Source: a virus
Direction: 5' to 3' (one strand)
DNA length: 27,212 nucleotides
IMG/VR virus record: IMGVR_UViG_3300028557_000164
Location: 1 to 27,212 of that record
The position numbers and the translations under genes are program-made. Below the pieces are notes generated by a model that worked only from the letters and a program-made list of their open reading frames with translations, searched no databases and had not been told where the DNA came from. Each line of letters opens with the position of its first letter. Within the stretch, counting starts at the first letter, position 1. Below are positions 18,710 through 20,418 of the stretch, one piece after another.

Positions 18710-19462
18710 ATGCACTATTACCAATTCAACATCGGTGACTATCAAAGTCACACCGCGCACCTGGATGAATCAGAAGATTTGGCATATCGCCGAATGCTTG
18801 ATTGGTGTTACCTTCACGAAAAACCGTTGCCGGAAGACGTTGGCGAAGTTGCCAGGTTAATTCGTATGCGTTCGCATTCCGAAAGCATTGCGAACGTGCT
18901 GCGTGAATTCTTTGAATTGATCGACGGCGGCTGGTGGTCGGAACGTGTTGGCTGTGAAATTCAAGCCATCCAGGACAAAAGCGAAAAGGCCAAAGCCAGC
19001 GCCCAGGCGCGTTGGAATGCGACCGCAATGCGACCGCATAGCGAAAGCAATGCTATACAAGACCCAAGACCCAAGACCCAAGATACAAAACCCAAGAAAA
19101 CAAAGGCGGTTGTCACCGCCACGCCTGACGGCGTTTCAAATGATGTTTGGGAATCGTTTTTGGCTATCAGGAAGGCCAGGCGGGCGCCTTTGACTACCGT
19201 GGCCTTGGCGGGGATTGAAAAAGAGGCCCAAAGGGCTGGATTCACGTTGGAACAGGCATTGGCGATGTGTTGCACCCGTGGTTGGCAAAGTTTCAAAGCC
19301 AGTTGGGCAAAAGACCAGGTGACCTCATCGGAAGCCAGGCAGAACGCAATGGGCGAATTGACCCGCGGCTTGGCGACCCCAAAACCCGCGCCAGCCCCAT
19401 TTTGGGCAAAACCCGAACAAACCGTGGAGGTGTCCCATGTGGAACGCAAGCGACTTTTGTGA
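18710..19462 (+). CDS. DUF1376 / DnaT-like phage replication protein
   Basis: A 250-residue protein probably involved in starting phage DNA replication. Residues 1-75 are a DUF1376 domain (YYQFNIGDYQSHTAHLDESE, then AYRRMLDWCY). Residues about 90-135 form a low-complexity linker. Residues about 138-200 (GVSNDVWESFLAIRKARRAP, then CTRGWQSFKASW) match the C-terminal DNA-binding region of phage replication proteins of the DnaT type. I chose ATG 18710 because AAAGG ends 7 nt upstream and because the domain starts here; two earlier in-frame ATGs (18674, 18695) are possible. The linker DNA holds tandem repeats listed separately. Its end overlaps the next gene by 26 nt. Confidence 0.82.
   Translation: MHYYQFNIGDYQSHTAHLDESEDLAYRRMLDWCYLHEKPLPEDVGEVARLIRMRSHSESIANVLREFFELIDGGWWSERVGCEIQAIQDKSEKAKASAQARWNATAMRPHSESNAIQDPRPKTQDTKPKKTKAVVTATPDGVSNDVWESFLAIRKARRAPLTTVALAGIEKEAQRAGFTLEQALAMCCTRGWQSFKASWAKDQVTSSEARQNAMGELTRGLATPKPAPAPFWAKPEQTVEVSHVERKRLL
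19017..19081 (+). repeat. Tandem repeats in the replication gene (candidate origin)
   Basis: ATGCGACCGCA occurs twice in tandem (19017-19027, 19028-19038), and GACCCAA occurs three times in tandem (19061-19081). An A-rich stretch follows (to about 19104). The repeats encode the flexible linker of the DUF1376 protein. Lambda places its origin iterons inside gene O in the same way, so this may be the replication origin. That role is inference. Confidence 0.45.
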
Positions 19463-19826
19463 TGCCGACAGCGGCTTTGATTACGTGTTCAGCAAAATGA
19501 ACGCGATTTACGGCGCCACGTTTGCCAACCATTGGCGCGATGTTGACCCTAACCTGGTTCGACAGGTGTGGATAGATGAATGTAGGCGTGGACTAACTTA
19601 TCGGCCAAAAATGGATTACGCTTTGAAGCACATGAACCCTGACCGGCCACCATCGGCTTTGGCGTTTGCTAAGTTACTGAACGACGGCCCGCGAATTCCT
19701 GACAAGCCTGAAACAATGATAACCAGGCAGCCGACATTGCACGAACAAATTGCAACCGAAAAAGCAAAAAACGAAGCATTGGCCAAGTTGCGCGAAATCA
19801 CCCAACAAATGAGGATGCCTAAATGA
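19437..19826 (+). CDS. Putative helicase loader (lambda P-like)
   Basis: A 129-residue protein directly after the DUF1376 replication protein, the usual place for a helicase loader. It has FSKMNAIYGATFANHW near residue 18, VWIDECRRGLTY near residue 44 and PPSALAFAKLLNDGP near residue 71. Such W, RGL and PP.A.EF.L landmarks recur in lambda P-type loaders, though lambda P is longer (233 residues), so this would be a short form. A GGAGGT site lies 7 nt before the ATG. The C terminus is a charged helix. Family assignment is moderate. Confidence 0.6.
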   Translation: MWNASDFCDADSGFDYVFSKMNAIYGATFANHWRDVDPNLVRQVWIDECRRGLTYRPKMDYALKHMNPDRPPSALAFAKLLNDGPRIPDKPETMITRQPTLHEQIATEKAKNEALAKLREITQQMRMPK

Positions 19827-20134
19827 CGAAAAACCAAGGGCATTTGTTGTTAAACAAACTTCAGGAGGGGCAAACTTTTGACTTCGACCAAATCACCGCA
19901 GCCCTTATCGCAACCGGCGACCTTGCTGGATGGCGAGAAACCAACCTGGTCGGAAGCCTGGCGGCGGAAATGCGAAGCCAGGGATTGGTTGCGCCGATTC
20001 AAGATTCACCAGCGCGAGAGGGGGACGAAGTTCGCCAACTTTTGGTGGCTGCAAACGATAGAGAAAATCGAAAAAATCCGCGGCCCTGGTGCAGCGCTTA
20101 CATTGCGGCAAGATATGAACAAGGTCAAAAATGA
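19823..20134 (+). CDS. Possible early protein, frame overlapping the DUF7696-like gene
   Basis: A 103-residue frame. Its ATG lies in an ATGA overlap with the preceding stop, with GAGG 9 nt upstream, and its TGA lies in an ATGA overlap with the next gene. These two junctions argue that it is translated. The N-terminal 35 residues look natural (HLLLNKLQEGQTFDFDQI, ALIATGDL). The remainder shares DNA with a different forward frame (19878-20162) that is better supported. Either both proteins are made, or only the first part of this one is conserved. Function unknown. Confidence 0.45.
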   Translation: MTKNQGHLLLNKLQEGQTFDFDQITAALIATGDLAGWRETNLVGSLAAEMRSQGLVAPIQDSPAREGDEVRQLLVAANDRENRKNPRPWCSAYIAARYEQGQK

Positions 20135-20162
20135 GAGCAGCCAGGATCGACGCAAACCATGA
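19878..20162 (+). CDS. DUF7696-like early protein (TTG start)
   Basis: A 94-residue protein reading from TTG 19878, which has a perfect AGGAGG ribosome site (19863-19868) 9 nt upstream. The product contains PATLLDGEKPTWSEAWRRKC and EARDWLRRF, a pattern I recognise from small phage proteins of the DUF7696 type (ATLLDG...EWR.ECEAR). IEKIRGPGAALTLRQDMN follows, agreeing with the family's RG..A...LR block. Function is unknown. It overlaps the 103-residue frame over most of its length and the first 32 nt of the VRR-NUC gene. Confidence 0.7.
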   Translation: MTSTKSPQPLSQPATLLDGEKPTWSEAWRRKCEARDWLRRFKIHQRERGTKFANFWWLQTIEKIEKIRGPGAALTLRQDMNKVKNESSQDRRKP

Positions 20163-20418
20163 ACAAGTTGTATTGGCATTACGCACGGCTGGCGCTACGG
20201 TTCAATCTTTGGCGGCTGTTGGCCAAGGTGTACCTGATTTGCTTGTGGGATTTCAAGGAAAGACGTTGCTTATGGAAATTAAAGATGGCCGCAAAACGCC
20301 TTCGGAACGTCGATTGACGGAAGATCAACTGAAGTGGCACGGCGCCTGGCGCGGCGGCCCCTTGGCCGTTGTGGACGGGGTGGATGCTGCTTTGCGGATG
20401 TTGGGGGTTATGAAGTGA
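20131..20418 (+). CDS. VRR-NUC domain nuclease
   Basis: A 95-residue stand-alone VRR-NUC protein of the PD-(D/E)xK superfamily. Seen: RIDANHEQVVLALRTAGA, then GQGVPDLLVGFQGKTLLMEI with Asp36, Glu49 and Lys51 as the likely catalytic set. In other phages such proteins act on branched or junction DNA. The ATG is in an ATGA junction with the upstream frame, with AAGG nearby. The end overlaps the GTG start of the ninB-like gene (GTGA). It belongs with NinB and the YbcO-like protein to a recombination and repair group. Confidence 0.88.
   Translation: MRAARIDANHEQVVLALRTAGATVQSLAAVGQGVPDLLVGFQGKTLLMEIKDGRKTPSERRLTEDQLKWHGAWRGGPLAVVDGVDAALRMLGVMK

Follow-up and report, generated by a model that had tools for sequence, protein, structure and literature searches.

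Two overlapping small genes in a viral genome fragment (IMG/VR record IMGVR_UViG_3300028557_000164, positions 1 to 27,212; this whole 27,212-nucleotide stretch is referred to as the window) are best explained as two real genes whose protein cores lie back to back, with the second gene (B) starting inside the first (A) and the tail of A kept open for translational coupling. We give this reading a probability of roughly 0.7. Only residues 1-34 of A and residues 23-85 of B behave as proteins, by constraint and by predicted fold; elsewhere the two ORFs simply stay open. Judged from the sequences, both proteins are probably made.

Results

Arrangement and identity of the genes

All of the genes concerned lie on the + strand. 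The upstream gene, a P-like helicase-loader ORF (19437-19826; phrog_109, E=3.1e-4), ends in a TGA that overlaps the ATG of A, and the resulting ATGA (19823-19826) is at once the stop of the helicase loader and the start of A. ORF A (ATG to TGA, 103 aa, frame 0) runs from 19823 to 20134, where a second ATGA (20131-20134) combines its stop with the start of the downstream gene, a small nuclease ORF in frame +2 (20131-20418; phrog_93 'endonuclease', E=3.5e-10). ORF B (TTG to TGA, 94 aa, frame +1) runs from 19878 to 20162; its TTG (19878-19880) is formed from codon 19 of A (TTT) and the next G, and a Shine-Dalgarno-like AGGAGG lies 9 nt upstream of it, within codons 14-16 of A (19863-19868). The overlap of A and B covers 19878-20134 (257 nt), with B in the +1 register relative to A. 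The consecutive genes A, B and nuclease occupy the three frames 0, +1 and +2, and the initial codons of the nuclease gene double as coding for the C-terminus of B. The initial annotation had described the extent of A with its two ATGA junctions, the AGGAGG before the TTG of B, the 257 nt common to two different frames and B as DUF7696-like, all of which proved correct. Its naming of the downstream gene as VRR-NUC was not confirmed: for this ORF Pfam gave no VRR-NUC match at E<=1 and no match of any kind above cut-off, and the PHROG match is the only one. The third forward frame is also open within the overlap, for 43 codons (19930-20061), which we take as chance.

B is a member of DUF7696 (PF24751), the Pfam match covering residues 23-82 with 50.5 bits against a curated cut-off of 27 (E=2.2e-13). 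AlphaFold predicted the core of B, residues 23-85 (19944-20132), as a three-helix bundle with a pLDDT of about 95, and gave residues 1-21 a pLDDT below 50; the first 22 residues (19878-19943) form a leader crossing the domain of A that is open, unconstrained and predicted to be disordered. In A, residues 1-30 were predicted as two helices with a pLDDT of about 90, and the tail (19925-20131) mostly fell below 55, i.e. disordered or of low confidence. Constraint, pLDDT and alignments together delimit the domain of A as residues 1-34 (19823-19924), two helices ending in a TGDL motif, of which T31, G32 and D33 were invariant in two alignments of relatives.

Searches of Pfam and PHROGs with A gave sub-threshold matches only. 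Its N-terminal domain (19823-19924) weakly resembles DUF7890 (PF25418), below the cut-off: the resemblance was seen in 15 of 20 members with a best E of 0.0015, and the window itself scored 12.4 bits against 26. Searching the PDB by sequence was unproductive, and fold searches of the PDB gave a best E of 1.7 for B and no match at Z >= 2 for A. The idea that A is a winged-helix protein of some 60 residues was rejected as unsupported: confident prediction is limited to residues 1-34, and LAAGMRSQG results from reading, in the frame of A, the DNA that encodes the WRRECEAR motif of B.

Relatives of A and B

We used A and B, singly and as alignments, as queries against IMG/VR. This gave a first group of 44 distinct sequences in which A and B each matched their own profile, always in the +1 register. 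Identity in A went down to 42% within this group; among the first 21 sequences it was 57-88% for A and 64-89% for B. A second, more divergent group was also found (L169-L193 and others). Altogether there were 106 distinct A-domain sequences, all with a +1-frame partner overlapping the 3' part of A, this partner being DUF7696 in 79 and an unrelated small protein, B2, in 27 (25 in the census plus L302 and L303, which were flagged there as partnerless yet carry B2 in the +1 frame with a short overlap). Scans of IMG/VR with the first 37 residues of A alone found no A lacking a +1 partner. ORF A was open in 79/79 distinct sequences of the DUF7696 type, extending to near the end of B, with A lengths of 87-199 aa. 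At one of the loci (L082:2501-3097), one extra base at the stop of A places A in frame with a phrog_93-type nuclease to give a 199 aa ORF; the base sits in a run of A, and either a real fusion or a sequencing error is possible.

The published phage MW202484 carries the domain of A with B2 in the +1 frame, and a second published phage, MW202462, has a relative of this B2 in the same place. In the deposited annotations the nested B2 is absent from both, the A frame being present in MW202484 (L196:3001-3264) and annotated from an internal start in MW202462 (L280:2485-2670). A scan with B2 gave 30 loci, most of them carrying the domain of A in the +1 layout; the only B2 loci without A were L299 and L300, both with A-frame stops. 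In L302 and L306, A has a tail of its own and stops near the start of the B2 core, leaving a shorter +1 overlap, and the overlap is likewise short in L303, where the domain of A is present. Crossing the partner is therefore, as L302 and L306 demonstrate, not obligatory for A.

At least one exchange of the nested gene appears to have taken place, between DUF7696 and B2 (each with its ATG at A+103 in some lineages), and the genes before and behind seem to have been exchanged too, with the three-frame layout kept. DUF7696 also exists as stand-alone genes that start at the core and lack a B-type leader, and B2 cores too occur as genes with their own starts. In five of the loci with stand-alone DUF7696 (L139, L141, L144, L146 and L147) a Cro-like helix-turn-helix ORF and a hydrophobic ORF of 40-44 aa replace A between the helicase loader and DUF7696. 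When one genome per bacterial species was searched, no A was confirmed and DUF7696 gave a single match (L195); scanning phage records with A and B was unproductive.

Constraint passes from A to B

The initial annotation had proposed true dual coding as one of two explanations of the overlap and had suggested a codon-substitution analysis over related phages, looking for constraint in both frames. We classified each substitution by what it changes in either frame, using our own script that follows the logic of published overlapping-gene methods, on sequences of equal length without indels (27/44 of the first group, 28/40 of the second and 18/25 of the B2 type); no sequence was excluded on account of an A-frame stop in the tested stretch. 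Constraint was found, frame by frame, with A first and B after it. In the first group, codons 2-18 of A had a dNN/dSN of 0.28. Over nt 55-120 (codons 19-40) dNN/dSN was 0.26 (0.10-0.51) and dNN/dNS was 4.0, i.e. A was constrained, and over nt 121-297 (codons 41-99) dNN/dSN was 1.03 (0.68-1.64) and dNN/dNS was 0.43 (0.30-0.62), i.e. B was constrained. The second group behaved alike, with 0.44 (0.23-0.76) for the domain of A and 0.94 (0.58-1.67) for its tail, where B had 0.25; in the B2 type the values were 0.06 for A before the nested ATG and 1.25 (0.52-11.95) for its tail, where B2 had 0.06. In each of the three groups, sliding windows placed the passage of constraint from A to B near codons 33-40. 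Residues 1-34 are therefore the sole part of A with amino-acid constraint of its own, and AlphaFold confidence changes at the same places as the constraint.

Amino-acid constraint was thus present in a single frame at a time over the shared nucleotides, so this is not strict dual coding, in which most of the overlap would be under selection for both proteins at once. What stands of that proposal is that both frames are open, conserved and alignable across relatives; since nt 55-120 are constrained in A only and nt 121-297 in B only, and the other two groups agree, we regard strict dual coding as the least probable of the explanations considered. Near codons 33-40, a short stretch may be constrained in both frames.

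A change of constraint from one frame to another at one place, seen in three groups, is also what a frame transition within a single gene would give. The main rival to two separate genes is therefore a programmed +1 ribosomal frameshift near codons 33-40, fusing the domain of A to the DUF7696 or B2 core, and it fits the observation that the domain of A was never seen without a +1 partner directly behind it. However, by eye the hand-over has no common sequence, reading GAC CTT GCT in the group of the window, GAC TTA CAT or GAT CTA CAT in the second group and GAC ATT AAA in L125/L163, and the DUF7696 and B2 cores exist as genes that have starts of their own. Two further observations given below, on the openness of frame 0 and on the start signals of B, also stand against a shift, and overall we consider it unlikely.

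The frame of A is open beyond chance

In the window alone, the probability that the A frame is open across the overlap, given the amino acids of B and codon usage, was 0.0033, and the probability that B is open given A was 0.028. Shuffling of synonymous codons gave probabilities of 0.003 to 0.15 per sequence, over 44 sequences, that the A frame is open over the core of B. As relatives are not independent, we simulated B-only evolution along a tree: only B was coding, each alignment column could take only the amino acids observed in it, and third positions of B were used to match divergence. A-frame stops were expected in 18.5/27 sequences of the first group, 20.7/28 of the second and 13.1/18 of the B2 type; none was observed in any of them, and this openness was reached in 0/400 runs for each group, where the simulations used one tree per group and pooled codon usage, ignored recombination and treated metagenomic contigs that are perhaps not independent. 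Setting omega to 0.2 or 1.0 left the result for the first group unchanged (0/200 runs each). As a control, the downstream nuclease gene fell within the simulated range in both other frames (of 300 runs, 113, 42, 268 and 66 gave the observed value or a lower one). These simulations, with a control gene that fits the same model, rule out a chance shadow ORF as the source of A's tail.

These results bear directly on the possibility that the long A frame is a by-product of codon choice in B, with only B and the first 34-40 codons of A being of importance. Several observations are in keeping with it: the tail of A has no amino-acid constraint of its own in any of the three groups, an A-type frame is open over the core in 4/13 DUF7696 loci without a recognised A (L150-L152 and L154), and A loci with closed tails exist (L302, L303 and L306). 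Against this, the simulations never reproduced the observed openness, and A-frame stops interrupt the other 9/13 DUF7696 loci without A; we consider a by-product very improbable, at about the level of strict dual coding. The stops also bear on homologues that conserve one frame and close the other, which the initial annotation had taken as evidence against its explanations: such homologues were absent from the A plus DUF7696 set and present outside it, namely at these nine loci and at the three where A ends near the start of the partner core. For a +1 frameshift, an open frame 0 through the partner is unneeded, and here it is open far above chance.

For the leader and start of B taken together, 13, 23 and 38 of 400 runs in the three groups were at or below the observed value, so that by simulation alone these are only weakly beyond chance. 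In relatives, both frames are open and conserved beyond chance, with the leader of B giving the weaker result of the two.

Start signals of B

The start site of B is inferred from codon choice in A together with the Shine-Dalgarno-like site, which in relatives takes GAGG or AAGG variants. Codon 19 of A makes either the TTG or the ATG of B, and it ended in T in 38/38 Phe/Tyr codons, compared with 8/38 at codon 21 (Fisher p = 8e-14, kinship ignored). The only two sequences without a start at codon 19 (L045 and L081) have an ATG from codon 21 instead. A second position behaves similarly: Leu28 of A was CTT or CTC in 39/39 sequences, and CTA or CTG there, or TTA or TTG before A, would close frame B. 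In L125, L130 and L131 Leu28 is CTG, frame B is closed, and the first possible start of B lies further downstream. In the main type of the second group (L169-L191) an ATG at A+103 was present in 20/20 sequences, following a GGTGA- or GGCGA-type sequence, and the B2 ATG of MW202484 likewise lies at A+103. A start of B at 19878 thus appears probable in the window. Start codon and Shine-Dalgarno-like site are retained and shift together with frame openness, which argues against a +1 frameshift and for initiation of B at its own start.

The junction with the next gene

In the DUF7696 type the stop of A overlapped the next start in 64/78 testable sequences (ATG in 56 and GTG in 8, with a next ORF of >= 45 codons), and in 14/78 the two did not overlap. 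The overlap persists although the next gene varies, this being a phrog_93-like nuclease in 34, RusA in 13 and PAPS reductase in 1 of the first 67 loci (65 testable). According to PMC6728339, termination-reinitiation couples pairs of the ATGA/TGATG type tightly (13/14 tested pairs), and the conserved overlap of A's stop with the next start fits such a mechanism. The tail of A would then serve coupling. This agrees in part with the second explanation in the initial annotation, that A exists mainly to deliver ribosomes; the purifying selection on the first 34 codons of A and their predicted fold speak against "mainly".

In the B2 type the stop of A overlapped the next start in only 5/25, and 14/25 of the A ORFs ended at codon 72, well ahead of the next gene; the A frame was still significantly open. 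At two loci, L301 and L302, it is B2 and not A whose stop overlaps the next start. Coupling therefore accounts well for the DUF7696 group and poorly for the B2 group. At L038 and L041 (on the same contigs as L011 and L015/L019), and also at L013 and L060, B is separated from the nuclease gene by an insertion of ~120 bases that contains a short ORF, and there the ATGA is formed by the stop of B instead of that of A.

Discussion

We propose that gene A encodes a two-helix domain of roughly 34 residues, as indicated by constraint and prediction, and that its frame then stays open along the full length of the DUF7696 core. Gene B would initiate at its own start codon within A, in the +1 frame; its unconstrained leader would cross the end of the domain of A, and the three-helix core would follow. 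On the statistical evidence of the simulations, selection keeps the tail of A open, most likely because ribosomes translating A keep the message open across B; ribosomes finishing A at the ATGA on the next start codon could reinitiate there. The domain of A and its embedded start signal would form a portable module, in which the nested, next and upstream genes vary among phages and the +1 arrangement is constant. A more specific version, to which we hold only tentatively, is that the first 34 codons of A are a portable translation cassette, i.e. a short functional peptide that also carries the ribosome-binding site and start for a +1 gene, with the frame left open to pass ribosomes onward.

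Long same-strand overlaps are known from phiX174 D/E and lambda Rz/Rz1, in which the shared DNA yields functional protein in both frames. As in those pairs, the second protein here is read in +1 from a start inside the first gene; unlike in those pairs, A and B are constrained in a single frame at a time, and A has two unrelated nested partners. The stand-alone copies of DUF7696 occur in the same replication neighbourhood as B, and unlike B they begin at the core and are not nested in another gene. In the ATGA/TGATG termination-reinitiation pairs (PMC6728339), a stop overlaps the next start as it does at both ends of A; here, in contrast, the gene that hands over spans an entire second gene read in another frame, and this hand-over outlasts replacement of the next gene. 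Conserved prokaryotic frame transitions, as in the GeneTack survey (PMC3711429), also have constraint moving between frames along one stretch, whereas here both frames are open on both sides and start signals for the second are present.

Overlaps between phage genes, coupling at ATGA and the DUF7696 family were all known before. The open literature searched contained no mention of DUF7696, and the partial texts within it contained no description of the A/B layout. As far as could be checked, two aspects are new: (i) a single short domain is paired with either of two unrelated +1 partners and (ii) an overlap that is both long and conserved has one frame open yet unconstrained as a protein.

If our reading is true, a long overlap does not have to imply that the same codons encode two proteins at once, and selection can preserve the openness of a frame purely for translation traffic, with the other frame specifying the protein. 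This would call for caution before a conserved open frame is taken as dual coding, and would account for the half annotation of such genes, as in MW202484 and MW202462 with frame A only. The exchanged partners would provide a natural set for testing coupling across a nested gene, and the layout as a whole suggests a portable way for these phages to pack neighbouring genes and link their translation.
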